DNA from: Rhabdobacter roseus
GTDB lineage: Bacteria > Bacteroidota > Bacteroidia > Cytophagales > Spirosomataceae
Assembly: GCF_014202275.1 (NCBI RefSeq)
Contig: NZ_JACHGF010000010.1
Coordinates: 124,001-188,000, forward strand
DNA: 64,000 nt
Direction of reading: 5' to 3'
Part shown: piece after piece, positions 8,998-32,402 of the stretch
How positions within the stretch are numbered: position 1 is the stretch's first letter
Layout: the number at the start of each line of letters is the position of its first letter
The notes under the pieces: model-generated
Databases searched by the model: none
The model's input: the letters and a program-made list of their open reading frames with translations, nothing else
What the model was told of the DNA's origin: nothing
Made by a program: the position numbers and the translations under genes

Positions 8998-10071
8998 ATG
9001 GAAGCCAATCGCAAAATCATCCACGTGGATATGGACGCGTTTTTTGCGTCGGTGGAGCAGCGCGACTTCCCCGAGCTGCGCGGCAAACCCGTAGCCGTGG
9101 GCGGGAGCGGCGACCGGGGCGTGGTGGCGGCGGCCAGCTACGAGGCCCGCCGGTACGGCGTACGCTCGGCCATGGCTTCCAAAGTAGCCCGGCGTAAGTG
9201 TCCGTCGCTGATTTTTGTCAAGCACCGCTTCGATGTCTACAAGCAAGTCTCTAGCCAGATCCGGGCCATCTTTGCGGAGTACACCCCGCTCGTGGAGCCG
9301 CTCTCGCTCGACGAAGCCTACCTCGACGTAACCGAAAACCTGCGCGGCCTGAAGTCCGCGACGCTCATGGCCCAGGAGATTAAGGAGCGGATCTGGCAAA
9401 CGACCCGCCTGACGGCCTCGGCGGGGGTGTCGTACAATAAGTTTCTGGCCAAGCTCGCCTCCGACCACCGCAAACCCAACGGCCTGTTTGTGATCAAACC
9501 GCACGAGGGCCTTGACTTTGTGGCGGCGCTGCCCGTGGAGCGTTTTCACGGCGTAGGGCGCGTCACGGCCGAGAAGATGCACCGCCTGGGCATTCAAACC
9601 GGCCTGGACCTGCGCCAGCAAACGGAGGCTTTTCTGCGGCAGCACTTTGGCAAGTCGGGCGGGCATTACTATCGCATCGCGCGGGCCGAGGACCAGCGCC
9701 CCGTGGAGCCCGACCGCATCCGGAAGTCGGTGGGCTCCGAAAACACCTTCGGGCAGGATCTGGACACGCTGGCCGAAATGCAGGGCGGCCTGGCCCCGCT
9801 CATGGACGACGTCTGGCGCTGGTGCGACCGCACGCAGGTTTTTGGCCGCACCGTGACGGTGAAGATCAAGTTGAACGACTTCCAAATCCTGACCCGCAGC
9901 CGCTCGGCGCTGCTGCCGATCCGGGAGCGCGCCTTTTTCGAGAAGGTAGCCTACGAATTGCTGGAAGAAAATTTCCCCCTGCCCCGGCCCGTGCGGCTGC
10001 TGGGCGTGTCGCTCTCCAACCTGGAAGACACCCATCCCTACGAAGGCAAGCAACTCACGCTGAGTTTTTAA
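8998..10071 (+). CDS. dinB: DNA polymerase IV (Y-family, translesion)
   Basis: 357 residues, standard length for DinB. Catalytic carboxylates are seen in HVDMDAFFASVEQRD and PLSLDEAYLDVT; the steric-gate Phe pair follows in DAFFA. SAGVSYNKFLAKLASDHRKPNG is, in part, the palm/fingers motif and VERFHGVGRVTAEKM the helix-hairpin-helix. The little-finger domain ends with LTLSF. A second, isolated copy of the last ~70 codons occurs at 29640-29863, and in both places the same leader sequence follows. dinB marks the last native gene before the first cassette island. Confidence 0.96.
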   Translation: MEANRKIIHVDMDAFFASVEQRDFPELRGKPVAVGGSGDRGVVAAASYEARRYGVRSAMASKVARRKCPSLIFVKHRFDVYKQVSSQIRAIFAEYTPLVEPLSLDEAYLDVTENLRGLKSATLMAQEIKERIWQTTRLTASAGVSYNKFLAKLASDHRKPNGLFVIKPHEGLDFVAALPVERFHGVGRVTAEKMHRLGIQTGLDLRQQTEAFLRQHFGKSGGHYYRIARAEDQRPVEPDRIRKSVGSENTFGQDLDTLAEMQGGLAPLMDDVWRWCDRTQVFGRTVTVKIKLNDFQILTRSRSALLPIRERAFFEKVAYELLEENFPLPRPVRLLGVSLSNLEDTHPYEGKQLTLSF

Positions 10072-10269: not shown

Positions 10270-10381
10270 TCCTGTAAGCTCACTTAATAAAATATATACG
10301 ACACGTAAAATGCAATATTATAAAGGTATTGTACAAATAAATACAAAAAAGTACTACATTATTTTCGTATATTTACTAGTT
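10270..10381 (+). repeat. Cassette leader copy L1 (attI-like), after dinB
   Basis: A 112-bp segment that recurs with the same length at 30080-30191 and in shorter form at about 28563-28635 and 31746-31764. Shared blocks include AATAAAATA, CACGTAAAAT, GTACAAATAAATACAAAAA and the terminal CGTATATTTA. TATATTTA (10368-10375) is one base off the TAnnTTTG promoter box and lies exactly 3 nt before the cassette junction GTTATAGGGC. The 10072-10269 stretch before it holds only RGTACY-rich intergenic DNA. Confidence 0.8.
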
Positions 10382-11079
10382 ATAGGGCATTTTAAGACAG
10401 ACCCCAACCGACAATGAAGTACAAGAACTATAAATCAGCAATCCACAACTTCGCACACTCATTCATGAGCATTGATTACATGAAAAGTGGACGACTTGCT
10501 GTAAATGTTCTTATTGACCTTTACAATCTCAGCTTGGAACCTAAAGCGACCTTTGACTTTATTGACAAGAAAATTCTACCGACTAAAGCAAAAACAAAGG
10601 AGAGTAATGAATTGCTCAACGACTATTTGAGCTGGTTGCCTGACCATTTTGCCCGACACAATTGCGACTTGACAAAATTGGAAGTTCTTCAAATAACAAT
10701 CTGGACTGACTTTGACAACGCCAAGACACCGCCAGGTATGAGTAACAGCAAGGAATTTATCGTTCATACGTTGACAAAATGGAAAGCTAACGGACGTAAC
10801 GAACAGACAATTGAAATTTCGCAGACAGAAATTATTAAGGAGAATTTTCTCAAGTTGAGAATACCTGAATTTAAGTGACACTAAACGCCCTATAACATGG
10901 GGTTTTGTGCAAGTGGGGCACGACGTTGTTACGTCAGCTATGAGCAAGCATCAGCTTTTGTTCCAGCGTGACGAACAACATTCAGCAACAGAATAAACAA
11001 TGAACTTTAATTTATAAATTGAGCAGCGGTTACGAGCAGACGGAACACAGAATTCCCCACCTGCACAAAGCCCTGTTCG
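10380..11079 (+). mobile_element. Integron-like cassette A (hypothetical gene)
   Basis: About 700 bp. It begins with TTATAGGGC after a G at 10379 and its 3' element begins with the exact complement GCCCTATAAC (10887-10896), a 10-bp match. This is the relation expected between the start of an integron cassette (G/TTRRRY) and the inverse core of its own attC. It carries a single AT-rich gene and the 3' palindromic element E1. Confidence 0.7.
10414..10878 (+). CDS. Cassette-borne hypothetical protein, 154 residues
   Basis: A soluble, mostly helical protein with no signal peptide, membrane segment or recognisable motif; I do not recognise the family. Conspicuous features are the Lys/Asn-rich composition, a central LSWLPDHFARHNCD segment and ITIWTDFDNAKTPPGMSN. 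Codon use is far more AT-rich than dinB next door, so it is acquired DNA. It is the only gene of its cassette and starts 38 nt after the leader's TATATTTA box, which is its likely promoter. Confidence 0.65.
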   Translation: MKYKNYKSAIHNFAHSFMSIDYMKSGRLAVNVLIDLYNLSLEPKATFDFIDKKILPTKAKTKESNELLNDYLSWLPDHFARHNCDLTKLEVLQITIWTDFDNAKTPPGMSNSKEFIVHTLTKWKANGRNEQTIEISQTEIIKENFLKLRIPEFK

Positions 11080-11085
11080 TTAGGT
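10887..11085 (+). repeat. attC-like palindromic element E1
   Basis: About 199 bp between GCCCTATAAC and GTTAGGT (the latter fits GTTRRRY). The outer arms GGGGTTTTGTGCAAGTGGGG and CCCCACCTGCACAAAGCCC are near-perfect complements. The central part includes AGAATAAACAATG and TTATAAATT, which recur in element E4. It fills the whole gap between the hypothetical gene and the two-component system. Confidence 0.75.
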
Positions 11086-11127
11086 GCAAGCCTAAAGAAC
11101 GACACTACCGAAACAAACCGACAACCA

Positions 11128-11164
11128 AATTCAAAATTTCTACAAAATTGAAATGGTAACTTTG
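11128..11164 (+). promoter_or_regulatory. Promoter and shared operator upstream of the response regulator
   Basis: A 21-bp block AATTCAAAATTTCTACAAAAT (11128-11148, quoted here minus nothing essential: core ATTCAAAATTTCT) recurs with two mismatches at 13130-13150 upstream of the outer-membrane gene. TAACTTTG (11157-11164), an exact TAnnTTTG box, ends 4 nt before the ATG, implying a leaderless or nearly leaderless transcript. The shared block is a good candidate binding site for the regulator itself. Confidence 0.5.
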
Positions 11165-11168
11165 ACCA

Positions 11169-11843
11169 ATGAAAATACTGATTATAGAAGACGAAAACGA
11201 CCTTGCCGACAGCATCTCTGAATATCTTTCGGAAGAAAAATATTTATGTGAGTTTGCAAAAACTTTTAATCAGGCATTGGACAAAATAGAATCCTTTAAT
11301 TACGACTGCATCTTGTTAGACATTATGTTGCCAGACGGCAACGGAATGAATATTTTAGAAGAACTCAAAAGACAAGACAAACAAGACGGTGTAATTATTA
11401 TTTCTGCAAAAAACGCATTAGACGACAAAATAAAAGGACTTCAAATTGGTGCAGACGACTATTTGACAAAGCCTTTTCATCTTTCGGAACTATCAGCAAG
11501 GATTTACTCGGTTATCAGAAGAAAACAATTTGGAAATTCAAATACGGTTCGACAAAATGAATTAGAAATAGACTTGCTTGCAAAGACTATTTCAGTTCAT
11601 AATCACCCTGTTATTCTAACCAAAAAAGAATTTGATTTATTGCTCTACTTTGTTGGAAATAAAAACAGAGTAATTTCAAAAAGCACCTTGGCTGAACATC
11701 TTTCAGGTGATTTTGCAGATATGTTAGACAACCACGATTTTGTTTACGCTCATATCAAAAACTTAAAAAAAAAATTGAGTGAAGCTGGATGCGAAAGTTA
11801 TTTAAAGACTGTTTACGGAACAGGTTATAAATGGGAAGGATGA
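11169..11843 (+). CDS. OmpR-family response regulator
   Basis: 224 residues: receiver domain (IIEDENDLADS, phospho-acceptor Asp in ILLDIMLPDGNG, Lys in YLTKPFH) followed by a winged-helix DNA-binding domain (ILTKKEFDLLLYFVGNKNR, ending YLKTVYGTGYKWEG). It is a transcription factor paired with the overlapping kinase gene. The 21-bp block repeated upstream of it and of the outer-membrane gene suggests autoregulation and control of the barrel protein. AT-rich and cassette-borne. Confidence 0.92.
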   Translation: MKILIIEDENDLADSISEYLSEEKYLCEFAKTFNQALDKIESFNYDCILLDIMLPDGNGMNILEELKRQDKQDGVIIISAKNALDDKIKGLQIGADDYLTKPFHLSELSARIYSVIRRKQFGNSNTVRQNELEIDLLAKTISVHNHPVILTKKEFDLLLYFVGNKNRVISKSTLAEHLSGDFADMLDNHDFVYAHIKNLKKKLSEAGCESYLKTVYGTGYKWEG

Positions 11844-13126
11844 ATAGATTACTAAACAAATCGCTTAAATCATTCACCATTTATGCACTTATTGTTTTAG
11901 CGGCAAGTGTTCCTGCATACCTTTATTTGGTTGATAGTATTTGGCTTCGTGAGTTGGATGAACACAACGAAATTGTAGCTGACAGAACGGAAAACGAACT
12001 CAATAAATTACAACTATCTGAAACCGAATTGAATCAAAGCATAGTGCTTTGGAACAAAATTCAACCCGGAACCAACCTTCAAAAGACCACTTTAGAAAAA
12101 AACAGAAAAGACAGCACCTATACAGTATCAAGAAAAAATCCCTATGTAACTCACGAAGATATTGACCGATTTCGGGGGCTTTCGAGAGTGATTGAAATAA
12201 ATGGAGAAAATTATTTACTCACCTTAGAAACCAATGTTGAAGAAACCGAAGAAACGGTCGTTGCAATAGCTATTCTGACTTTTTTATTTTTTCTGATTTT
12301 AGTTGTCGGTTTTCTGATTCTCAACAGACGATTATCCGTAAAACTATGGCAACCTTTTAAAAATACTTTGGCGAAGTTGAAAGCATTTAATCTCAATTCA
12401 CAAAGCAATATTTCGTTTGAAAAATCAAACATCATTGAGTTTGAAGAATTAAATGTGGCTTTGAATAAGTTAATCGAACACACGGTTTCGGTTTACAAAT
12501 CCCAAAAAGAATTTACAGAAAATGCTTCACACGAACTTCAAACTCCTTTGGCAATTATTAAAAACAAATTGGACATACTTCTGCAAAAGGAAACATTAAC
12601 AGACAGGCAATATCAAATTATAGAAGACATCAATAACGCATTAACAAGGGTTTCACGTATCAACAAAAATCTATTATTGCTTGCTAAAATAGAAAACCAT
12701 CAGTTTGATGATAACGAAACAATAAATCTGGCTGAGTTGACCATACAATGTTTAGAGCAATTACAAGAGCATTTTTTAAATAAAGAATTAAGCGTTAAAA
12801 CAAATATTGAAAAAGATTTTTCTATTACAGGAAACAAAATGTTAATCGAAATTCTCATCAATAATTTATTGCTCAACTCGATTAGGCATAACTCACAAAA
12901 AGGAACAGTTGAAGTAAAATTGAACTCATCAGGTTTCATTATCTCCAATTCAGGAAACATAGCCTTGGATAAAGAACATCTCTTTAAACGGTTTAAAAAA
13001 ACTTCCAATGAAAATTCAGGAAGTGGTCTTGGGTTGGCTATTGTTGAGCAAATTTGCAAAAGACATCATTGGACAATAACCTATGAATTTCAGCAAGAAA
13101 CACACATTTTAAAAATCAGCTTTTAG
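11840..13126 (+). CDS. Sensor histidine kinase, partner of the upstream regulator
   Basis: 428 residues from the ATG at 11840, which overlaps the regulator's stop codon (ATGA); an ATG at 11831 is the alternative. Two membrane helices (about 12-32 and 137-160) bracket a ~100-residue periplasmic sensor region. The HisKA His lies in ASHELQTPLAIIKN and the ATPase domain carries NNLLLNSIRHN and GSGLGLAIVEQIC. Translationally coupled to the regulator, inside cassette B. The signal is unknown. Confidence 0.92.
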   Translation: MNRLLNKSLKSFTIYALIVLAASVPAYLYLVDSIWLRELDEHNEIVADRTENELNKLQLSETELNQSIVLWNKIQPGTNLQKTTLEKNRKDSTYTVSRKNPYVTHEDIDRFRGLSRVIEINGENYLLTLETNVEETEETVVAIAILTFLFFLILVVGFLILNRRLSVKLWQPFKNTLAKLKAFNLNSQSNISFEKSNIIEFEELNVALNKLIEHTVSVYKSQKEFTENASHELQTPLAIIKNKLDILLQKETLTDRQYQIIEDINNALTRVSRINKNLLLLAKIENHQFDDNETINLAELTIQCLEQLQEHFLNKELSVKTNIEKDFSITGNKMLIEILINNLLLNSIRHNSQKGTVEVKLNSSGFIISNSGNIALDKEHLFKRFKKTSNENSGSGLGLAIVEQICKRHHWTITYEFQQETHILKISF

Positions 13127-13129
13127 TAC

Positions 13130-13150
13130 AATTCAAAATTTCTTCTAAAT
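13130..13150 (+). promoter_or_regulatory. Second copy of the candidate regulator-binding block
   Basis: The block with core ATTCAAAATTTCT matches 11128-11148 at 19 of 21 positions and lies about 43 nt before the outer-membrane gene. This ties the outer-membrane protein to the two-component system as a probable target. Confidence 0.5.
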
Positions 13151-13192
13151 CGCTTCGGAGCTTTGCAGGGTAACTTAAAATTTATCCAATTT

Positions 13193-14581
13193 ATGAAGCG
13201 TAGTATAGCAACTCTGTTTATTCTGTTTTCAATCACAATCGTAAAGGCTCAAGAAATAGACAGTCTTTCATTCATTAAATCGAAACGAATGTCGGATGAT
13301 GACCTTGCGAAAAAGCGAGAAGGAACCTTTTTTACGGGAATACCCGATTTTTCTTCCGACCCAGTTACAGGTTTCGGTTTTGGGTTAAGAACAAACACCT
13401 ATTGGAATGGAAATCGTGATAATCCTTTATTTCCCTACACACCATATTTGGCAAAACTAAAAGCGAATGCAGCTTATTACACTTCAAATGCAAGAGAATT
13501 AGTTCTTTCGCTTGATGTTCCCTATTATAAAGGAACACGTTGGAGATTTAAAATTGATTTTAAGGCACAACAAAACCCCGCCAATTTATATTTTGGATTA
13601 ACAGAATCAACACTTGGGCAACTTCGCCTACCATCTGACGAAAACACCACTTTTTCAACATATCGAGAATTTGACAGAGCAAGAAAAACGTTGAGACCAG
13701 GCGGAGTTGGAGAAGCTGATTTTGTAACAGATGCACTCTCGAACCGATTTAGGGAAACGGAATATATGCTCAATTTGAAAGCCGATTATGCACTTGGAAA
13801 TGGCAAATGGCGTATAATGGGTGGTTATGAAATTCAGCATTTGAGTTATACAACTTTTGAAGGAATGGAAGCGGAAGCAATCGACCCGATTACAGGACAA
13901 AACACAACTGCACCAAACGGCATTTCACTTTTAAGACGAGATTTTGAAGACGGTTTAATTTCAGGAGTTGACGGTGGTTGGGTTTCAATTATTCAGACGG
14001 CTTTGATTTTTGACACAAGAGATTTTGAACCCGACCCTACAAAAGGTTATTACTTTGAAATAGCAAATGAATATTCCAGTAAATACATTGGTTCACAATT
14101 CGACTTCAATAAACTTTTTATCCAAGGACGAGCCTATCAAAAATTACCAATTGGCAAGCGGACAGTTTTAGCAGGACGATTTGGAGCAGGCAATATTTTT
14201 GGAAACAATGCACCATTTTTTGAATTTCAAGACCAATGGAGTCCAGAAGGAAGTATCAACGCTTTGGGTGGCAGACAATCATTGCGTGGCTATCGAGCTA
14301 ACCGATTTTTGGCTCGTTCAATGTGGTTCACCAATGTAGAATTGAGAGTAAGACTTGCAGAAACTCAAATTGGAAAGCAAAGATTTGCCTTTGCCGTAGC
14401 ACCGTTCTTTGACGCAGGTACAGTAAGAGACCGTTGGCAAGACTTAAATTTTAAAAACATTAAAACTTCCTATGGCGGTGGATTACGAATAGCTTGGAAT
14501 CAGTCCACCATTTTATCGTTTGACTATGGACATTCAAAAGAAGATAGACTTTTTTACTTCGGGATTGGACAAGCATTTTAG
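13193..14581 (+). CDS. Omp85/BamA-like outer-membrane beta-barrel protein
   Basis: 462 residues from the ATG at 13193, which gives a proper signal peptide (MKRSIATLFILFSITIVKAQ). The opening region (FFTGIPDFSSDPVTGFGFGLR) fits the DUF5982 module and the C-terminal half the bacterial surface antigen barrel, with GGRQSLRGYRANRF as the conserved VRGY/F-type segment and a C-terminal Phe. There are no recognisable POTRA repeats, so a secretion or lipid-transport role is unproven. It is the third gene of cassette B and is preceded by the block shared with the regulator. Confidence 0.8.
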   Translation: MKRSIATLFILFSITIVKAQEIDSLSFIKSKRMSDDDLAKKREGTFFTGIPDFSSDPVTGFGFGLRTNTYWNGNRDNPLFPYTPYLAKLKANAAYYTSNARELVLSLDVPYYKGTRWRFKIDFKAQQNPANLYFGLTESTLGQLRLPSDENTTFSTYREFDRARKTLRPGGVGEADFVTDALSNRFRETEYMLNLKADYALGNGKWRIMGGYEIQHLSYTTFEGMEAEAIDPITGQNTTAPNGISLLRRDFEDGLISGVDGGWVSIIQTALIFDTRDFEPDPTKGYYFEIANEYSSKYIGSQFDFNKLFIQGRAYQKLPIGKRTVLAGRFGAGNIFGNNAPFFEFQDQWSPEGSINALGGRQSLRGYRANRFLARSMWFTNVELRVRLAETQIGKQRFAFAVAPFFDAGTVRDRWQDLNFKNIKTSYGGGLRIAWNQSTILSFDYGHSKEDRLFYFGIGQAF

Positions 14582-14647
14582 ACTTCAAAACGACTGACTT
14601 AAACATAAAAAAAGTATCTTAGTCGGACGAAAAACAAGAAGGCCAGC

Positions 14648-14780
14648 ACCTAACAGCGGTTTGGCGTAATGGCGGTTGTAGTGCTTCGTATGACAGTTTT
14701 GTGGTAGGTTCAAGTTCGGTTCTTCGATGGAACTTTTGTGCTTAAAATCCGCCACTACGCCAAGCCGCAAACCGTTAGCG
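14648..14780 (+). repeat. attC-like palindromic element E2
   Basis: 133 bp from ACCTAAC to GTTAGCG. Left arm TAACAGCGGTTTGGCGTAAT and right arm ACTACGCCAAGCCGCAAACC are near-perfect complements ending in TAAC/GTTA. The centre contains GTTCTTCGATGGAACTTTTG, shared in form with E5 and E6. It has the shape expected of an attC site. Confidence 0.8.
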
Positions 14781-14806
14781 GTAATTCTAAACCATACTAA
14801 AACACA

Positions 14807-14974
14807 ATGACAGAAACAGAACAATTTTGCCAAATACTAAGAGAACGTTCTGCTGAAAATGTTTCGGCTGGACGACTACTTTTTCAGAACAGACTGTTTG
14901 GACAGCTAATATCAGTTTTAAGACAAGAACTAGACTCTTTAGTTCGAGCGGTTTTTCTATTGAGTAATGACTTA
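14807..14974 (+). pseudogene. Cassette gene interrupted by an IS630-family element
   Basis: Starts MTETEQFCQILRERSAENVS and is broken after codon 56 at a TA dinucleotide (14973-14974). Removing the insertion joins it in frame to 16617-16643, giving only eight more codons before a stop, so the 3' part was probably lost too. Function unknown; soluble, helical. It belongs to the cassette that begins TTAGCGGTAATTC after element E2, whose own left palindrome arm is missing. Confidence 0.6.
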
Positions 14975-14986
14975 TTGATCAGTGCG

Positions 14987-15087
14987 TTAGTTTGTAAAGA
15001 ATTCTATTTCTTGTTTATGAAAGAAAGAAGAAATAAGCCTTGGGTTCTTTCTTAACTCCTCCACTTTTGCAAGTACGGCATCTGAGG
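14987..15087 (-). pseudogene. C-terminal fragment of the IS630-family transposase
   Basis: Reads SDAVLAKVEELRKNPRLI then SSFFHKQEIEFFTN and a stop. The LRKNPRLISSFF pattern is typical of IS630 transposase C-termini. It is out of frame with the N-terminal piece because the middle was deleted. Confidence 0.5.
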
Positions 15088-15098
15088 TGTGCCGATTA

Positions 15099-15935
15099 TT
15101 ATGGACACGTGACTTGCTTAGTTAAAGAATAACAATAATGATTTTCATATTGCATTGGACTCTGATAATTCAGACTTGAATGTTTACGGTTGGTGTTGTA
15201 ATACATTTCAATATATTCAAAGATTTCTGTTTGGGCATCTTCCAAATTGTCAAAGATTCCATCCTCGAGCAGTTCGGCTTTGATTCGGCTGAAGCAAGAC
15301 TCCATGAATGCATTATCATACGGATCATCGGCCCGGCTCATGGATTGTGCTATTTTTCTTTTCAGTAGCAGCTTACGAAACATGCCTCCCGCGTACTGGC
15401 CCCCACGGTCTGAGTGTACAATAAGTCCAGCTTTGACATTTCTTGTGGCAAGCGCTTTCCGCAACGCTGTTATCACCAGCTCCTCCCGCCTGTGGCTGGC
15501 CAACTGCCAGCCCACAATCCTTCTTGAGTATAGATCCATCCACACGGACAGATAAGCCCATCTGCCCTGGGAAAGCGGGATATACGTGATATCACCTACC
15601 CACACTTCATCAGGCCTTGTAGGCGGTTGACGCTCCAGCAGCAGATTGGGGCTGATAGGGTAAGGATGCCTGCTCTCAGTGGTCCGGGGCACAAAGCTGC
15701 GAGGCTGTATGGCTCGTAATCCATGCTGGTGCATCACTTTTCTGCATGCATACTTCCCAATTCTAAGACCCTGATCCTTTAACTCCGCGCAAATCCTGCG
15801 GATGCCGTAACGCTGCTTGTGCGCTCTAAATACTTCCACGATCTGCTGTTCCACCTGCTGCTTTTCTATATTTTTTACTTTTGGCTTCAAGTACTCGTAA
15901 TACGCACTGCGGCTGATCTGCATGGCGCGGCACAA
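15099..15935 (-). CDS. IS3-family transposase OrfB (DDE integrase domain)
   Basis: 278 residues from the first ATG, but the frame stays open upstream (DRCKFIKTHQHQYPIKLLCR) to the slippery site in orfA, so the working enzyme is probably an OrfAB fusion made by -1 frameshifting. HTH_21 region YGIRRICAELKDQGLRIGKY, then rve core with the catalytic triad: Asp in WVGDITYIP, Asp in IVHSDRGGQY, Glu in NAFMESCFSRIKAE. The last codons lie inside the left inverted repeat. Apparently intact. Confidence 0.92.
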   Translation of the reverse strand: MCRAMQISRSAYYEYLKPKVKNIEKQQVEQQIVEVFRAHKQRYGIRRICAELKDQGLRIGKYACRKVMHQHGLRAIQPRSFVPRTTESRHPYPISPNLLLERQPPTRPDEVWVGDITYIPLSQGRWAYLSVWMDLYSRRIVGWQLASHRREELVITALRKALATRNVKAGLIVHSDRGGQYAGGMFRKLLLKRKIAQSMSRADDPYDNAFMESCFSRIKAELLEDGIFDNLEDAQTEIFEYIEMYYNTNRKHSSLNYQSPMQYENHYCYSLTKQVTCP

Positions 15936-15988
15936 CAGCTTGATGGGATACTGATGCTGGTGTGTTTTAATAAACTTACAGCGATCCT

Positions 15989-16297
15989 TTACTGCGAGCG
16001 AGAGAAGATGCCCAAGGCTTTTTTTAAAATGTCTCGCTCCATTTCCAGTTCACGCAGCTGCTTTTGTAGCGCCAGGTGTTCCGATAAACTAACTTGTGAA
16101 GGGGGCACGGGTTCAGATAGAGTCGCATTAGTACTGCCAAGGGCCTGCCTTCGCCAGCGGTAAATGATGTTTTCTCCTATACCCAATGAACGGGCAATGT
16201 CCGCTACCGAACGGCCAGCTGCAATCATGTTAACAACTTCTTGCTTGAAGGAAACATCGTACTTCCTCCTGCTTTTCTGTGATTTTTTGTTCTGCAT
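15989..16297 (-). CDS. IS3-family transposase OrfA (helix-turn-helix)
   Basis: 102 residues. The HTH_Tnp_1 domain is plain in KYDVSFKQEVVNMIAAGRSV with DIARSLGIGENIIYRWRRQ, followed by a leucine-zipper-like helix (EHLALQKQLRELEMERDILK). A run of seven A followed by G near 16018-16025 (minus strand), in KKALGIF, is the usual programmed -1 frameshift signal that joins OrfA to OrfB. Confidence 0.92.
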   Translation of the reverse strand: MQNKKSQKSRRKYDVSFKQEVVNMIAAGRSVADIARSLGIGENIIYRWRRQALGSTNATLSEPVPPSQVSLSEHLALQKQLRELEMERDILKKALGIFSRSQ

Positions 16298-16345
16298 CTC
16301 TACTTGCTAATTTATGCAAGTTACGTGTCCATCAAAATTAGACCA

Positions 16346-16570
16346 TCTCACTTTCAACTGCTCTTGTGTAAGGCGACAAGCTGGCCCTTGGGGTTTACGC
16401 CATACCAGACCAGCCTCGCCATTCTCTTTATACTTCTTCAGGGTCCGACTTACCCAACCTTCGGTTAATCCCAAGGCTTGGGCAATGCTGGTCTGTTTCC
16501 AGCCTGCTTCTTTTAGTTCGGCACAACGCCGACGTAGAAGCTCATAATCACTTCGTTTGTATTTTGCCAT
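16346..16570 (-). pseudogene. N-terminal fragment of an IS630-family transposase
   Basis: MAKYKRSDYELLRRRCAELK begins a typical IS630 winged-helix N-terminus (QTSIAQALGLTEGWVSRTLK). The ATG at 16570 is the natural start. The frame is cut by the IS3 right end after about 75 residues; the DDE catalytic domain is absent. Confidence 0.8.
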
Positions 16571-16673
16571 AGACAACAAAATACAATATCTTTACAATCC
16601 TACTCATCTATCAATAAACAGTAGTTTTTCAATTAAACTTTAGTAATAATATCAGCTTTTTGTGTTTCAATTT

Positions 16674-16706
16674 CCCGCCCGAACGCAAAGCCCCAAAACG
16701 TTATCT
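16674..16706 (+). repeat. Right half of an attC-like element (E3)
   Basis: CCCGCCCGAACGCAAAGCCC followed by CAAAACGTTATCTGC matches the right arms of E2, E4 and E5 (consensus CGCCAAGCCGCAAACCGTTA). No complementary left arm is found upstream, so this element has lost its left half, consistent with the damage to the cassette gene before it. Confidence 0.6.
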
Positions 16707-16729
16707 GCAATTTTAACAACCATCACGTT

Positions 16730-17032
16730 ATGACAATTACAAGACTTTGGCACGGACGAACTAATTTAAAGGACGCAGACATGTATCTTGAATACGTTAT
16801 GCAGACAGGACTTAAAGAATACGTTTCCACAAAAGGTAATTTATCCGCTAAAATATTACGTAGAACGGAAGGCGAAACGTGCCATTTTATTACAATTAGT
16901 GAGTGGGATAGTTATGAAAGCATTATAAACTTTGCAGGAAAGGATTTTGAAAAGGCAAAGTACTATCATAAGGATAAAGAATACCTTATAGAATTGGAAG
17001 AAAATGTAATACATTACGAAACTTACGAATAA
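16730..17032 (+). CDS. ABM-domain (antibiotic biosynthesis monooxygenase-like) small protein
   Basis: 100 residues; ferredoxin-like fold of the ABM/dimeric alpha-beta barrel type suggested by MTITRLWHGRT at the start, ETCHFITISEWDSYESI in the middle (strand then a W-containing turn) and a C-terminal strand. Small ABM proteins act as dimers in monooxygenation or haem handling, but no catalytic residue identifies the substrate. AT-rich, 3 bp before the next gene, so the two form an operon within cassette D. Confidence 0.65.
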   Translation: MTITRLWHGRTNLKDADMYLEYVMQTGLKEYVSTKGNLSAKILRRTEGETCHFITISEWDSYESIINFAGKDFEKAKYYHKDKEYLIELEENVIHYETYE

Positions 17033-17035
17033 GTC

Positions 17036-17713
17036 ATGGAAAATGTATTAAAGGTCGGGCTTGACTTTGCAGCGCCAATTCCCTTACATACAGACATTTC
17101 AAGTAAAAAATTTGAAGGCTTTGAAGTTGATTTAATGAATGAGATTGCCAAGGAACTTAGTGTTGCATTAGAGCATAAAGTTGCCTATTGGGAAGATATT
17201 ATTGCTGATATTATACACCAAAAAATAGATATTATTTGTTCAGCCGCTACTGTTACAGAAAAAAGAAAAGAAATAGTAGCATTTAGCAACCCATATCTCA
17301 ATTTTCATCTTGCTTTAGTTTGTAATAAAGATAATATTGTTGCCTTGAAAGACTTAAAAGACAAAAATATAGGTGTGAGAATAAGCTCAGAAGCCGAAGA
17401 ATATTTGAAAAAAAATTTTCCAGAAAAAGAATTGTTTCTTTTCGATACAAACGATGAACAATATGGAAGGCTAACGGAAAAAGAAATTGACGCTTTGATT
17501 GACGATACACCAATTGCTTATGGGTTTGTTGAAAATAATTCTGCTATCGTTATGGCTGAAATAATTAAAAGTACGCCTTCGCAGTATGCAATTATCATTA
17601 ATAAAGAAAATATTGATCTGCTAAATCAAATTAATAGCGCGCTTGATAAGTTTGAAAAAAATGGCTATTTGCAAGACAGAAGGGATTTTTGGTTTAAGGA
17701 CACGCAGCTATAA
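17036..17713 (+). CDS. Solute-binding protein family 3-like protein without signal peptide
   Basis: 225 residues matching the periplasmic binding-protein type 3 fold: VGLDFAAPIPLHT, then FEGFEVDLMNEIAKELSV, DIICSAATVTEKRKEIVAFS and VALKDLKDKNIGVRISS. These normally bind amino acids for ABC uptake, but this copy has no signal peptide and no transporter genes nearby, so it may act in the cytosol as a ligand sensor or enzyme. Coupled to the ABM gene. Confidence 0.75.
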   Translation: MENVLKVGLDFAAPIPLHTDISSKKFEGFEVDLMNEIAKELSVALEHKVAYWEDIIADIIHQKIDIICSAATVTEKRKEIVAFSNPYLNFHLALVCNKDNIVALKDLKDKNIGVRISSEAEEYLKKNFPEKELFLFDTNDEQYGRLTEKEIDALIDDTPIAYGFVENNSAIVMAEIIKSTPSQYAIIINKENIDLLNQINSALDKFEKNGYLQDRRDFWFKDTQL

Positions 17714-17720
17714 ACCCTGT

Positions 17721-17919
17721 GGCTAACAGGCGGTTTGGGAATACGGTGGGGCGACGAATATATGCTCAACTTTTTGTTCGTTATTCGGCTTCAGCCCAGC
17801 CGACGAATAAAGCAATAGAATAAACAATGTGCATTTGGTTATAAATTTAGCTGTAGTTATGGACTGACTTTTTCCAAATACCGCCCGAACGCCAAGCCGA
17901 AAACCGGTGGGCGTTAAAC
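17721..17919 (+). repeat. attC-like palindromic element E4
   Basis: About 199 bp from GGCTAAC to GTTAAAC, the latter an exact GTTRRRY. Left arm CTAACAGGCGGTTTGGGAAT and right arm CCGCCCGAACGCCAAGCCGA with AAACCGG are complementary with bulges. The centre shares ATAGAATAAACAATG and TTATAAATT with E1, defining a long subfamily. It closes the first cassette island. Confidence 0.75.
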
Positions 17920-28562: not shown

Positions 28563-28635
28563 ACCTACTAGCTCACTAAATACATACAAAAAGTACTACC
28601 GTGCCGCGTCTGCAAAACTTTCGTATATTTAGGAT
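28563..28635 (+). repeat. Cassette leader copy L2 (shortened)
   Basis: ACATACAAAAAGTACTACC, TCTGCAAAACTTTCGTATAT and TTTA match the 3' part of L1 and L3. TATATTTA (28624-28631) is again 3 nt before the cassette junction, here TTTGTAGGAC. Confidence 0.7.
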
Positions 28636-29229
28636 TTGTAGGACATTCAAAAACAGGTTTGCCAATGAACCCTCCAATCCGGACGCTGGAAGAGCAAAAG
28701 AATGAGTTTAAAAGCAGAAAACTACTGGCTACGCCACTTGCCGGATTACTGGCTTGGCTTATCGTTGGCCTGGGCGGTATTTTTCTATCTCCTACGGGTA
28801 AAGTTTGGGTATTGTTTATTGCGACAGGAAGCATCGTGTATCTAGGTATGTTCATATCGAAATTTACGGGCGAGAACTTCCTCGACAAAGACAAGCCTAA
28901 AAACACCTTTGATAAACTCTTCTTTTCCACCGTTGGCCAAGCTGTGCTGGTTTATGCCATCGCCATCCCATTTTTTCTTTATGATTACACTTCCCTGCCG
29001 CTCACAGTAGGAATCCTAACGGGATTGATGTGGCTGCCCGTGAGCTGGCTCATTGACCACTGGGTAGGTATTTTCCATGCGGTTGGAAGAACAGCCCTTG
29101 TACTAACTCTTTGGTATATAGTGCCCCAGCACCGGTTTGTGGCCATCCCCTTTGCCATAGTGGGCATCTATATAGTAACGATTGCAATTTTGATGAACAG
29201 AAAGATCTGAAGCTATAAAGTCCTACAAC
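28636..29229 (+). mobile_element. Integron-like cassette (DUF7010 membrane protein)
   Basis: Starts TTGTAGGAC and ends with the exact complement GTCCTACAAC at 29220-29229. A truncated second copy begins at exactly the same base (31539) behind element E5, showing that the unit moved with defined ends. The right part of its own palindrome seems lost in 29230-29400. Confidence 0.7.
28665..29210 (+). CDS. DUF7010-type integral membrane protein
   Basis: 181 residues from the ATG at 28665 (a TTG lies two codons upstream). About six hydrophobic helices, with RTLEEQKNEFKSRKLLATPL before the first and FISKFTGENFLD in the first loop. I recognise the layout as the uncharacterised DUF7010 family, often annotated simply as hypothetical membrane protein. 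GC content is higher than in the neighbouring cassettes, nearer to the host. A truncated duplicate occurs at 31539-31738. Confidence 0.7.
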   Translation: MNPPIRTLEEQKNEFKSRKLLATPLAGLLAWLIVGLGGIFLSPTGKVWVLFIATGSIVYLGMFISKFTGENFLDKDKPKNTFDKLFFSTVGQAVLVYAIAIPFFLYDYTSLPLTVGILTGLMWLPVSWLIDHWVGIFHAVGRTALVLTLWYIVPQHRFVAIPFAIVGIYIVTIAILMNRKI

Positions 29230-29639
29230 ATCCGTTTACTTCAGTAGCGGAGGAAGAACGTGCTATGAATCAAAAAGCTTGGTCAACTTTAATGATCCGT
29301 GAATTAGCTTATAAAGTTAGGTAAGCGACAAAATTCCTTCTATTTGATTGGAGAAGAGTTATTAGGTCATTTGCTCCCTCGTTGGTCGTAGTTTTCAATT
29401 ACGTCCTGGTGTTACGCGGTCTCTGACCGAAGTGCCAGTTGGCGAGCACTAGCCTCGGTTGGAGACCGAAGATGCACAAACGTAGTGGAATGCCGTCCAA
29501 TGGGGTGCCGACCGGAAAGAGACCGCTCTGGGGCGGGAAAAGTATCCTTTGACACTTCAAAGAACGGAAGTATCCCCTCAGTGAAGCCTCATCCAGTACA
29601 TCCTGAACACTTACAAAATGTAAACCAATTTTATTATTA
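29230..29639. other. Gene-free region with remnant sequence and a dispersed repeat
   Basis: After the cassette end there is AT-rich DNA without a supported gene, then the 106-bp repeat at 29405-29510. Nothing else was recognised. Confidence 0.5.
29405..29510. repeat. 106-bp dispersed repeat, copy 1
   Basis: CCTGGTGTTACGCGGTCTCT ... CAGTTGGCGAGCACTAGCCT ... recurs at 33130-33234 with about 85 percent identity by eye. It has internal dyad symmetry (CGGTCTCTGACCGA and CGGTTGGAGACCGA), so it may fold as RNA. The two copies bracket most of the second island. Confidence 0.75.
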
Positions 29640-29863
29640 GCCGCATCATCACTGTTAAGTTGAACGACTTCCAAATCCTGACTCGCAGCCGCTCGGCGCT
29701 GCTGCCCATTCGGGAGGGTACCTTTTTTGAGCAAGGTATTGCCTACGAGCTGCTGGAAGAGAACTCCCCTCTGCCGCGGCCCGTGCGGCGGCTGGGCGTG
29801 TCGCTCTCCAACCTGGAAGACACCCACCCCTACGAAGGCAAGCAACTCACGCTGAGCTTTTAA
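29640..29863 (+). pseudogene. Duplicated 3' fragment of dinB
   Basis: Encodes LNDFQILTRSRSALLPIREG through YEGKQLTLSF, nearly identical to the last ~68 codons of dinB (9868-10071), including the stop codon. No upstream polymerase domains are present. Sequence after the stop also matches the DNA after dinB (GGTACTTG.GCAAGCC, then the 112-bp leader), so the whole dinB-tail-plus-leader block was duplicated. Confidence 0.9.
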
Positions 29864-30079
29864 GGTACCCTGTGGGAGAAAACGCTGTGTCATTATTTTG
29901 GGATAGGGTACCTTCATTTTCTTTTGGGGAAGCGAGCGGAGGGTACTTGGGCAAGCCATAAATTCCTAAAAAATAGAACTATCTTGTGCAGCAAAGGCGA
30001 AAAGAGAATGACTTATCTGAATTTGAAGAGAATGACTTATCTAAACTTGATAGGGATGTCTAACACCTAATTTTCTTTG

Positions 30080-30191
30080 ATCCTATTAGCTTACTCAATA
30101 AAATAAGTACGGCACGTAAAATTCAATATTTTATAGTTATAGTACAAATAAATACAAAAAGTACTGCAAAACTTGCGTATATTTACGAGTT
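30080..30191 (+). repeat. Cassette leader copy L3 (attI-like), full length
   Basis: 112 bp matching L1 (10270-10381) along its whole length, with GTACAAATAAATACAAAAA, AGTACT and GCGTATATTTACGAGTTA. TATATTTA at 30178-30185 lies 3 nt before the junction GTTATGTGCC. As after dinB itself, it follows the dinB 3' end. Confidence 0.85.
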
Positions 30192-31538
30192 ATGTGCCAT
30201 TATAGACAGACAAAACCGTTTAACAAGACAAGAATTTAATGAATATATTATACAACAACTCTATTTGTAATTCCTCTATTTTGGGTTATCATCCAAAATT
30301 CACAAAAGAACAGGAACAACAAATATTCGCAACTTTTTTTGAGCAACTACTTTTGTTCGATTGCATTGTAATAAGCACGGATAAAGACAACTTTTCATTA
30401 ACATTTTTAATTTCAAGACTTGGACTTGAAACAGTTGAAAGATTAATAAGAAGTGGTTATATAAAATTTAGTATAAAGTCAGCAATAATTGTAACAGGAA
30501 CTGGACATCAAAAAGAAGACGGAAGTATTGACGAAAGTGTTATTTATTCACAACCTCCAATAGTTGGTGGAGTTTTAGGTGACGCTGAGCTTGACCCCGA
30601 AAAAAATGCTTTTAGAGCTTTAAGTCGATTTGAAATTGATAAAAAAAGAAGAAACAAACTAATTGATAAAATCGCAAAATCATATTTGTCAACAGATAAT
30701 ATGAAAATTGGAGTTGATACGACAGATTTTATTTTAAATTCCTATCAACAAAACCATTTAGAACACCTCGGGTTACCTTTTTTAAAAGACCCACAAGATT
30801 TAGACATTGAAGAAAGACGAAAACTTTTAGACTTGGCAAATTCAATACTTGAAGCAGGTATTATTTCAAAAAATGGTTTTAAAAGCTATAACAACTACGG
30901 AGAATTTGAAATTGCAGAAAAGAGTTTTGAAAATATTGGAAAAGCGTACAATATAAGCTCTAATGTATCAGAAATACTAAAAATTGAAAACACACCAGAT
31001 TTAAGACAAATATTTTTAAATAATCAATTTGAGGTTGATGATATTTTTAAATTGCGACATCTTAAAACGGCAAAATATTTTAGAAAATGGATAAATGAAG
31101 TAGGTGAAAATGCTAATTCAAATGAAGTTACAGAAGCCTATCTAGCTGAAATAAAAGAAGCCAAATCATTTTTTAATACCACAAAAGGAAAAATAATAAA
31201 AAACACTTTTATGTATGGAGCGACATCTGGATTAGGAATGTTAATTGCTGGACAAGTAGGTGCGGTTGTTGGTGGGGTAATAAAACCGTTCGTTGAGCCA
31301 GCCGTTGACTATGGACTTGGTTTAATTGAAGAATTTACTGTTGACGGACTGTTTGCTGGTAAAACGCCCAAAATATATATTGACAAACTTAAAGACGAGA
31401 TAAAATAATGGCACATAACAGCAGTTTGGCAAAATGGCGGGTTCAGTGCTAAATTCAACGATAGTTCTTCGATTGAACTCTTGTGCAAAACTGAACATTT
31501 GTGCTTCGATTTCCGCCACTGCGCCAAGCGCCAAACCG
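30190..31538 (+). mobile_element. Integron-like cassette (389-residue unknown protein)
   Basis: Starts at GTTATGTGCCATTAT (30189-30203) and its 3' element starts with the exact 15-bp complement ATAATGGCACATAAC (31405-31419). It holds one AT-rich gene, whose stop codon lies within the terminal inverted sequence, and element E5. Confidence 0.75.
30239..31408 (+). CDS. Cassette-borne hypothetical protein, 389 residues
   Basis: I do not recognise the family. Mostly soluble and helical, with a Lys/Glu/Asn-rich composition, a central IDKKRRNKLIDKIAKSYL helix and, near the C-terminus, a glycine-rich hydrophobic segment (YGATSGLGMLIAGQVGAVVGGV) that could insert into a membrane. No catalytic motif stands out. 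A defence or toxin role would be a guess; single-gene cassettes often carry such functions. The leader box TATATTTA lies about 54 nt upstream. Confidence 0.65.
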   Translation: MNILYNNSICNSSILGYHPKFTKEQEQQIFATFFEQLLLFDCIVISTDKDNFSLTFLISRLGLETVERLIRSGYIKFSIKSAIIVTGTGHQKEDGSIDESVIYSQPPIVGGVLGDAELDPEKNAFRALSRFEIDKKRRNKLIDKIAKSYLSTDNMKIGVDTTDFILNSYQQNHLEHLGLPFLKDPQDLDIEERRKLLDLANSILEAGIISKNGFKSYNNYGEFEIAEKSFENIGKAYNISSNVSEILKIENTPDLRQIFLNNQFEVDDIFKLRHLKTAKYFRKWINEVGENANSNEVTEAYLAEIKEAKSFFNTTKGKIIKNTFMYGATSGLGMLIAGQVGAVVGGVIKPFVEPAVDYGLGLIEEFTVDGLFAGKTPKIYIDKLKDEIK

Positions 31539-31544
31539 TTGTAA
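31413..31544 (+). repeat. attC-like palindromic element E5
   Basis: Left arm TAACAGCAGTTTGGC...TGGCGG and right arm CCGCCACTGCGCCAAGCGCC-AAACCGTTG are complementary with one bulge. The centre holds GTTCTTCGATTGAACTCTTG, as in E2 and E6. The element closes one cassette and its final GTTGTAA opens the truncated copy of the DUF7010 cassette. Confidence 0.8.
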
Positions 31545-31738
31545 GACATTCAAAAACAGGTTTGCAAATTACCCATCCAATCAGGACGCTGGAAGAGCAA
31601 AAGAATGAGTTTAAAAGCAGAAAGCTACTGGCTACGCCACTTGCCGGATTACTGGCTTGGCTTATCGTTAGCCCTGGCGGCATTTTTCTATCTCCTACGG
31701 ATAACATTTGAGTATTGTTTATTGCGACAGGAAGCATC
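31539..31738 (+). pseudogene. Truncated copy of the DUF7010 cassette
   Basis: About 200 bp, roughly 93 percent identical by eye to 28636-28833. It reads THPIRTLEEQKNEFKSRKLL then a frame break after SPTDNI, and ends in GAAGCATCGTG, where a leader fragment takes over. Identity starts precisely at the TTGTARGAC cassette boundary. Confidence 0.85.
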
Positions 31739-31745
31739 GTGTTAT

Positions 31746-31764
31746 CTTTCGTATATTTAAGAGT
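31746..31764 (+). repeat. Cassette leader fragment L4
   Basis: CTTTCGTATATTTAAGAGT repeats the terminal part of the leaders. TATATTTA (31752-31759) is 3 nt before the junction GTTAGCTAAAA and probably drives the RidA-like gene. Confidence 0.6.
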
Positions 31765-31801
31765 TAGCTAAAATCTTTTACAAATATTACGATTAAATTA
31801 A

Positions 31802-32245
31802 ATGAATATGAAATACATTATCCTACTTCCGTTTTTATTATTTTTTTCTAATACTTTTTCCCAAGAAAAAAAAGTTAAAAAAGAAAAATGGCATTGGAAT
31901 AACAACAATATAAAACAAGATACAATTGCGGGTTATTGTCAAGTTTTAAAAATTGATAATGTCCTTTATATTTCAGGTGCTGTAACAAATGATATTACTC
32001 CGGAAGGAATTACATCAGTTTATAACGATTTAAAAGCTTCATTAGCAAGTTTTGGAGCAACCTTTGCCAATGTTGTGAAAGAAAATCTATATACAACAGA
32101 TATTGAAGAAATGAAAAAATTTAATTACGTCAGAAAGAAATTTTATGGCAATGATTTTCCCGCAGCTACTTGGGTTCAGATACAAAGATTGTATATGCCA
32201 AAAGCTAAATTAGAAGTTGAGTTAATAGCACATCTGCCAAAATAA
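31802..32245 (+). CDS. Secreted RidA/YjgF-like protein lacking the catalytic Arg
   Basis: 147 residues with signal peptide MNMKYIILLPFLLFFSNTFSQ. The Rid fold is visible in LKIDNVLYISGAVTND, VYNDLKASLASFGATFANVV and a C-terminal KAKLEVELIAHLPK. Canonical RidA enamine deaminase has Arg in the PAR.CVEV segment; here that stretch reads FPAATWVQIQRL, so the key Arg is missing and deaminase activity is doubtful. Rid proteins are normally cytosolic, which makes an exported one odd. AT-rich; the cassette ends are TTAGCT and AGCTAA. Confidence 0.75.
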   Translation: MNMKYIILLPFLLFFSNTFSQEKKVKKEKWHWNNNNIKQDTIAGYCQVLKIDNVLYISGAVTNDITPEGITSVYNDLKASLASFGATFANVVKENLYTTDIEEMKKFNYVRKKFYGNDFPAATWVQIQRLYMPKAKLEVELIAHLPK

Positions 32246-32262
32246 TTTACAAGAAAGGCTTC

Positions 32263-32402
32263 AGCTAATAAGGAATTACCAAAGTGGGAATTAATGGCTT
32301 CGATTGGACATTTCAGCAACGTTCAATTTTTGCCCTTCGATTGAACTATACTGCTAAACATTCCCGCCTTCGTCAATACCAAAACCGCTGGCATGTATAA
32401 GT
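32263..32402 (+). repeat. attC-like palindromic element E6 (degenerate)
   Basis: Begins with CAGCTAAT, nearly complementary to the cassette start GTTAGCT, and ends CATTCCCGCCTTCGTCAATA then CCAAAACCGCTGGCATGTAT. The centre has CCTTCGATTGAACTATACTG as in E2/E5. The terminal core is GTATAAG rather than GTTRRRY, so it may be decayed. Confidence 0.55.

Follow-up and report, generated by a model that had tools for sequence, protein, structure and literature searches.

The stretch of DNA studied here (the window) comprises 64,000 nucleotides (nt) of contig C10 (NZ_JACHGF010000010.1, positions 124,001 to 188,000) of the 6.9 Mb genome of Rhabdobacter roseus. It very probably carries an array of integron-type cassettes that stands on an attI site, has no integrase of its own and is likely to have been assembled by a family of tyrosine recombinases of the Bacteroidota which is distinct from the classical integron integrases (IntI). 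The array spans window positions 10333-17909 and consists of the attI site, two intact cassettes and a remainder that is damaged by an insertion sequence (IS), with no integrase gene adjoining it. In the tests that were run on the sequence it behaves like an integron, except for the classical core consensus and the extrahelical bases of the attC sites. The preliminary description of this region had also read it as an array of integron cassettes, and had named two observations that would speak against this reading, namely units that end away from GTT in related genomes and palindromes that are the terminal repeats of a transposon; both checks, wherever they could be run, favoured the integron reading. 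The parts of the array are as follows (window coordinates).

10333-10381, forward strand: attI site, with the crossover GTT at 10379-10381 and the core TTCGTATATTTACTA; no integrase gene beside it; the motif recurs before the first cassette of the integron on contig C18 and in relatives
10380-11079, forward strand: cassette 1, with one gene (10414-10878); its start GTTATAGGGC is complementary to its own inverse core GCCCTATAAC
10887-11082, forward strand: attC-like site E1, found by the scan; long type, about 190 nt; bottom-strand fold with z -3.03
11080-14774, forward strand: cassette 2, encoding a response regulator (11169-11843), a histidine kinase (11831-13126) and a DUF5982/Omp85 outer membrane protein (13193-14581) (Pfam)
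14646-14777, forward strand: attC-like site E2, found by the scan; short type, about 127 nt; the bottom strand pairs the R arms, z -2.73
14775-16702, forward strand: cassette 3, broken by an IS3-type element, with a helix-turn-helix fragment at 16307-16579 beyond the transposase genes, and ending in the half site E3 (about 16675-16703); from sequence, Pfam and repeat family D1
15099-15935 and 15989-16297, reverse strand: IS3-type transposase genes inside cassette 3 (Pfam)
16701-17909, forward strand: decayed unit, with an open reading frame (ORF) at 16730-17032 and an SBP_bac_3 protein at 17036-17713 (Pfam)
17719-17909, forward strand: attC-like site E4, with a decayed right end (GGTG instead of GTTA, GTT lost); covariance model match at 1.1e-11, E4 being among the eight training sites of the model

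The start of cassette 1 (at 10379) pairs with the inverse core at 10887-10896 and, in the same way, the start of cassette 2, GTTAGGTGC (at 11079), pairs with GCACCTAAC (14646-14654). Both matches are as given in the preliminary description, which had pointed to palindromes in units whose starts are complementary to their own inverse cores, and when the whole window is scanned for TAAC...GTTA hairpins without use of these coordinates, E1 and E2 are recovered (0 matches in the reversed window). The covariance model matches E2 at 3.9e-24, E2 itself being among its training sites. It had also been proposed that three units each end in such a palindrome, which holds for E1 and E2; E3 is reduced to its right half, with GTT at 16700, because the IS3-type transposase genes sit in cassette 3, and E4 ends in GGTG. 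The statement that all genes point in the same direction fails on these transposase genes, which lie on the minus strand. The start of the unit 16701-17909, ATCTGC, mismatches the inverse core (AGCCAC after reverse complement), and this unit is therefore not an intact cassette; the inverse core of E4 fits neither of the remaining starts. Searches of Pfam and NCBIfam with the gene of cassette 1 gave no match. Each intact unit has a single hairpin site, at its 3' end, and the window repeat search and the hairpin scan revealed no counterpart of it at the 5' end. With its attC-like sites of a new type and no integrase alongside, the region 10333-17909 has the composition of a cluster of attC sites lacking an integron integrase (CALIN), for which at least two attC sites are required.

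The earlier statement that no integrase is in view holds for the surroundings of the array; an intact integrase gene is found in the same genome, on contig C18. There, a tyrosine recombinase of 373 residues is followed by CGTATATTTAGGA directly before GTT, by two cassettes (encoding an alpha/beta hydrolase and an OLD/GajA-like AAA-TOPRIM protein) and by the contig end. Contig C18 has the tyrosine recombinase gene, the adjacent attI and the cassette array of an integron; the window has attI and the array only. PADLOC matched one of eight proteins, the GajA/OLD-like protein of the second C18 cassette, and six of the nine cassette proteins submitted to Pfam are without a family. The search of the complete genome that had been suggested for further copies and for an IntI-type recombinase found further sites (36 covariance model matches) and the C18 recombinase, with no IntI above the curated cut-off in this genome. 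The attI core TTCGTATATTTACTA before GTT 10379, the C18 integrase, its non-IntI nature and the spread through the phylum all go beyond the preliminary description.

By the comparisons made, the C18 integrase is not an IntI. It reaches 165 bits with TIGR02249 (265 needed) and 188 bits with NF040815 (XerA/integron integrase, 220 needed), falling short of all NCBIfam cut-offs listed, and about 90 additional residues at its N-terminus have no Pfam match. The segment by which IntI is defined (PMC9668308, PMC2426708), in the region of helix alpha-I2, which is tied to the extrahelical base of attC (PMC3053210), measures 13-15 residues in 70 of 70 intact frames of the family, as compared with 44 in IntI1 (residues 189-232); this count omits the 10 of 80 loci whose frames stop early. 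The 44 residues are present in 12 of 12 IntI from other classes of the phylum, where true IntI are common. In a quick tree of 45 rows the IntI (9 rows), the family (28 rows) and a group of proteins of about 550 residues form separate branches, with support values of 98, 100 and 98, so that the family lies outside the IntI clade as well as below the TIGR02249 cut-off; with the long Xer outgroups, the tree is compatible both with the family as sister of IntI and with an independent lineage. The group of about 550 residues appears to have sites of its own, as a matching start is found near the integrase in four of the four loci examined, motifs such as GCGTATATACAGAT before GTT occur in two of these four, and the own-start rule (the cassette start being complementary to the inverse core of its own site) holds in most pairs. 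The AlphaFold2 model of the integrase is moderate (predicted local distance difference test 74.9, predicted template-modelling (TM) score 0.44) and its best Protein Data Bank match, the integron integrase 2a3v (TM score 0.38), is given little weight. A phage integrase was also considered and rejected: 25 phage records match at 1e-20, none of them with one place covering 80% of the query.

The position of the sites with respect to related integrases was studied in a larger set of loci. Of the 8000 candidates of the protein search, 7703 scored at E of 0.001 or lower, general tyrosine recombinases included; the 120 matches listed have identities of 66-83%, and 80 named loci, the best 80 of 241, were taken as the sample. 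Among the names in their titles are Cytophagales, Chitinophagales, Saprospiraceae, Flavobacteriaceae, Sphingobacteriales, Paludibacter, Ignavibacteria and Kapaibacterium. A site scanner that ignores own starts finds 100 sites at these 80 loci, every one on a single side of the integrase: downstream and on the integrase strand in 22 loci, upstream and on the opposite strand in 21. In the reversed control, 2 scanner matches are obtained versus 59 real ones in the same 40 loci. The own-start rule is followed closely, with a complementarity of 5.40 of 6 for the 68 cassettes at integrase loci (49 perfect), compared with 3.07 for the adjacent core and 2.48 after shuffling (maximum 3.00 over 2000 shuffles). 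When the scanner sites alone are considered, 43 of 56 pairs are perfect (shuffled mean 1.6, maximum 8 over 10000 shuffles). In 144 of 151 cassettes the longest ORF runs on the same strand as the attC site; it starts at a median of 35.5 nt past GTT.

Between the integrase and the first site, 42 of the 45 loci with such a site have a GTT start matching this site at 5 or 6 of 6 bases. The attI candidate is here the best of all intervening GTTs, for which a chance match is estimated in about one locus in ten; 41 of the 42 candidates are at most 800 nt from the integrase end. A common core, with up to 2 mismatches, is present in 34 of 42 attI candidates, versus 439 of the 11983 GTTs that these loci contain and 3 of 114 attC ends, and has the form of an imperfect inverted repeat around TCGTATATTTACGA. 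It commonly reads TATATTTG or TATATTTA, for example at window 10364-10378 and in L061, L088 and L104. These readings resemble the Bacteroidetes promoter element TAnnTTTG, and from this likeness it is possible that attI may double as a promoter of the cassettes. A related integrase and two attC-like sites are also seen on a Chryseobacterium plasmid (L141, NZ_CP041688); its sole cassette pair matches at 5 of 6 bases and its attI candidate is without the core. As this plasmid holds both integrase and sites, the system can be plasmid-borne.

Swapped and shared cassettes bear on where the exchange would take place. Two metagenome-assembled genomes (MAGs), L052 and L053, are 98.96% identical across 11,299 nt and split at the attI GTT into different first cassettes. 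Chryseobacterium lacus (L061) and Moheibacter lacus (L092) have 1331 nt in common at 100% identity, which is one cassette with GTT at both edges, located at different array positions. Cassette 2 of the window, the only window unit with a relative among the loci compared, is 87.3% identical to a cassette of the Ignavibacteria MAG L053, which stands beside an integrase with an open frame; both edges of the homology are at GTT, as expected from the integron reading, and the identity outside is 0.31 and 0.37. The cassette of contig C24 of the present genome is 95.5% identical to one in a genome of the same family (L177), with the left edge at the start and the alignment ending short of the right end. 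Over four pairs the identity outside the shared cassettes is 0.24-0.37 (0.29-0.37 without L053/L104); a fifth pair, L037/L184, has identical flanks, was taken as one genome twice and is left uncounted. Two features that belong to the functional definition of an integron, a start complementary to its own inverse core and a crossover at GTT, are thus present in the sequences, with exact edges in two of the shared-cassette pairs.

The pairing between start and own inverse core extends past seven bases. When 87 cassettes are compared, position 7 after GTT pairs in 71%, positions 9-11 in 83-91% and position 12 in 57%. None of the 87 pairs at position 8, where A is opposite C in 69 cassettes, which on the bottom strand is a T-G wobble. 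In 59 of 65 circular forms (p 7e-11) and in 58 of 74 array forms (p 8e-9) the bottom strand is predicted to fold more stably than the top strand, so that a single-strand fold with bottom-strand preference, as in attC, is present in terms of predicted energies only. The classical attC consensus, RYYYAAC ... GTTRRRY (PMC3053210), is rarely seen: GTTRRRY fits 12 of 100 sites, RYYYAAC 9 and both 2. In the fold of E2, a 4-nt one-sided bulge and a mismatch are found where two clear single extrahelical bases are expected.

Of the 22 co-directional loci in which the scanner finds sites, 15 have ssb, the gene for a single-strand binding protein (SSB), next to the integrase (upstream of it in 10, downstream in 5); the same holds for 9 of 37 site-free loci and for 0 of 21 divergent loci. 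In the present genome the ssb and integrase genes overlap; ssb at L017:6705-7043 overlaps the integrase start, and relatives have ssb before or after the integrase. A dedicated SSB would suit a system that folds single-stranded attC.

Further sites in the genome were searched with the covariance model, which was trained on eight own-genome sites and whose E-values are rough. At E up to 1 there are 36 matches, the eight training sites included, many of them single. An exact own start of GTT plus six bases is present within 4.5 kb upstream of 13 of 33 testable sites (0.42 expected). Cassettes without an integrase start on attI-like motifs of the C18 type on C10 (window 10379 and 30189), C4 and C17, and on a second attI-like type, for example TTCGTATATACAAAT, on C8 (twice), C3 and C1. 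The C24 array is preceded by a C-terminal remnant of an integrase of the 550-residue type. Both ends of this contig (L023) carry the same sequence in opposite orientation, so that copies of an insertion element probably flank the array. The sites L163 (C2:29044-29204), L084 and L097 have one odd inverse core in common (GAACTA after reverse complement); perhaps they are copies of one degenerate element.

The sites are widespread. Among 150 genomes of the same family, 86 have sites (E up to 1e-8), 54 have relatives of the integrase (E up to 1e-60) and 40 have both; the strong and middle integrase classes, taken together versus the rest, are associated with sites (p 0.001). In the class of the window, which from the named loci is taken to be Bacteroidia, 127 of the 198 genomes sampled have sites (E up to 1e-10), in 86 of 121 genera, and 30 of the 198 have the integrase (E up to 1e-85).

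Several observations weigh against the proposed reading. No exact start is found for 20 of the 33 tested own-genome sites, 37 of the 80 integrase loci are without a scanner site (35 after adding model matches), some of them with long flanks, and the core is absent from 8 of 42 attI candidates. Taken by itself, the strongest integrase class shows no significant association with sites (12 of 15 genomes, versus 74 of 135 outside the class, p 0.097), and 46 of the 86 site-bearing family genomes have no integrase match at the E cut-off; many arrays are therefore orphans or served by other recombinases. In the pair L053/L104 (77% identity) the alignment begins only 105 and 61 nt inside, with no exact left edge. 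Moreover, the circular forms and the shared cassettes that were compared had partly been picked by their start match; the own-start counts (68 cassettes and 56 scanner pairs) and the pairing at positions 7-12 are free of this choice.

The dependence of the array on the non-IntI family could be questioned in two ways. An ordinary integron, built by a true IntI that has since been lost or was left unassembled, with the linked recombinases as bystanders, is very improbable. Among 296 genomes sampled from the phylum, 84 do have true IntI genes above the cut-off, but only one of these (G186) is marked as being of the same class (the same-class total in the sample is not stated), the present genome has none above the cut-off, and its integrase is missing the IntI segment. 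At 12 IntI loci, which total 44,102 nt and have short flanks, the site model gives 0 matches, just 2 of 100 sites satisfy both halves of the classical consensus, and sites and attI are tied by position to the non-IntI family. It is also improbable, though the least so of the alternatives, that another recombinase, for example the host XerC/XerD, moves the cassettes, the linked family acting at attI only or being a remnant. This would fit the many site-bearing genomes without a detected family member and the arrays at attI-like sites without an integrase; against it, two non-IntI lineages, the 370-residue family and the group of about 550 residues, adjoin their own attI sites and own-start arrays, and the scan finds no site at the Xer-like locus L024.

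The palindromes themselves might be dispersed miniature elements, terminators or transposon ends and no recombination sites at all, as suggested by the 36 genome matches at E up to 1, many of them single, and by the form of the sites, which are long hairpins 3' of genes. This is hardly tenable. The own-start rule, attI, the one-sided placement and the GTT-ended cassettes are foreign to terminators and to miniature inverted-repeat transposable elements, and the cassette boundaries are exact in unrelated genomes. Transposon ends were rejected on the same grounds, as each intact unit in the window has one hairpin, at its 3' end, with a start that pairs with its own inverse core, and the matching repeats at both unit ends that a transposon with terminal inverted repeats would have are not seen.

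According to the proposed integron mechanism, the folded bottom strand of attC would be cut by the integrase at G/TT, which would release the cassette as a circle, and the integrase would then insert this circle at attI, such that the newest cassette stands first. The attI core would be the double-stranded target of the integrase, and the SSB encoded beside many integrases is predicted to help in handling single-stranded attC. The window array has probably either lost its integrase or been filled in trans by the C18 enzyme. We infer the catalysis of attI x attC recombination by this family, the strand use and the role of ssb from sequence.

A second array is present in the window.

30140-31544, forward strand: second array, with attI (GTT at 30189) and one cassette (ORF 30239-31408), which has an exact own start that lies on the attI motif
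31410-31544, forward strand: attC-like site of the second array (model match)
31763-32393, forward strand: further attI-like motif (GTT at 31763) and a weak attC-like site (32260-32393)

The ORF 30239-31408 has no match in Pfam. A degenerate attI-like motif is seen near 28637, in the region 28600-32400. A second dinB, present as a 3' remnant (residues 281-357, 82%), precedes the attI at 30189, just as an intact dinB (8998-10071) precedes the main attI (10379); the dinB-attI segment seems to have been duplicated within the window.

When compared with known systems, the array and its relatives resemble IntI integrons (class 1 and sedentary chromosomal) in having attI next to a tyrosine recombinase gene, mostly one-gene, co-oriented cassettes with an attC hairpin at the cassette end, the GTT crossover, the complementarity between start and inverse core, and the bottom-strand bias in predicted folding. 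They differ from these in the integrase, which is outside the IntI clade and without the IntI-specific segment, in the complementarity, which reaches about 12 bases and is interrupted by a constant mismatch at base 8 after GTT, in the classical consensus, which 2 of 100 sites fit, and in the ssb gene beside the integrase in 15 of 22 co-directional site-bearing loci. Like a CALIN, the window array has attC-like sites and no adjoining integrase; unlike a CALIN, it retains attI, and a matching integrase is encoded elsewhere in the genome. Reverse-orientation integrons of Spirochaetota are named in PMC9668308. In such integrons the integrase is co-directional with the cassettes, as in 22 of 80 loci here. 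The Spirochaetota integrons are IntI-based, and differ from the present family, in which 21 of 80 loci have the divergent, classical layout. The best NCBIfam models of the family, NF040815 and TIGR02249, relate it to the Xer recombinases and the integron-like simple tyrosine recombinases (PMC8138268), from which it differs by scoring below the cut-offs and by its N-terminal extra part of about 90 residues.

For Bacteroidetes proper, the single complete integron named by IntegronFinder 2.0 is that of Salinibacter ruber (PMC9024848), and other papers name the phylum among integron carriers, without detail in the available parts. No description of a non-IntI integron of the Bacteroidota is among the literature matches listed (titles and abstract openings; preprints and most subscription journals being outside the scope). 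A unit of Riemerella anatipestifer, reported in 2026, is comparable: it consists of the aph(3')-IVb gene with 27 nt on its 5' side and 140 nt on its 3' side, has an attC-like fold and enters a specific chromosomal locus without homology (PMC13148043). Its authors suggest site-specific recombination by a mechanism not elucidated, and no integrase is named in the available text (PMC13148043). Going by its published description, this unit is built like the cassettes of the present system.

On balance, we lean towards the view that these loci represent a second kind of integron, in which an Xer-like lineage that lies outside IntI, lacks the IntI segment and often brings an SSB of its own would be the standing gene-capture system of the Bacteroidia, with its own attI and a large shared pool of attC cassettes. 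This system would possibly be independent of IntI in origin, and it would supply the missing machinery for the homology-free uptake in Riemerella. It thereby becomes testable by what means the Riemerella gene, with its attC-like tail of 140 nt, is inserted into the chromosome in the absence of homology (PMC13148043), and the notion that integron function depends on the IntI-specific insertion (PMC8138268) is challenged. With site matches in 127 of 198 genomes and 86 of 121 genera of the class, a major path of gene flow may so far have escaped notice, probably because the models used in searches demand IntI and a classical attC.

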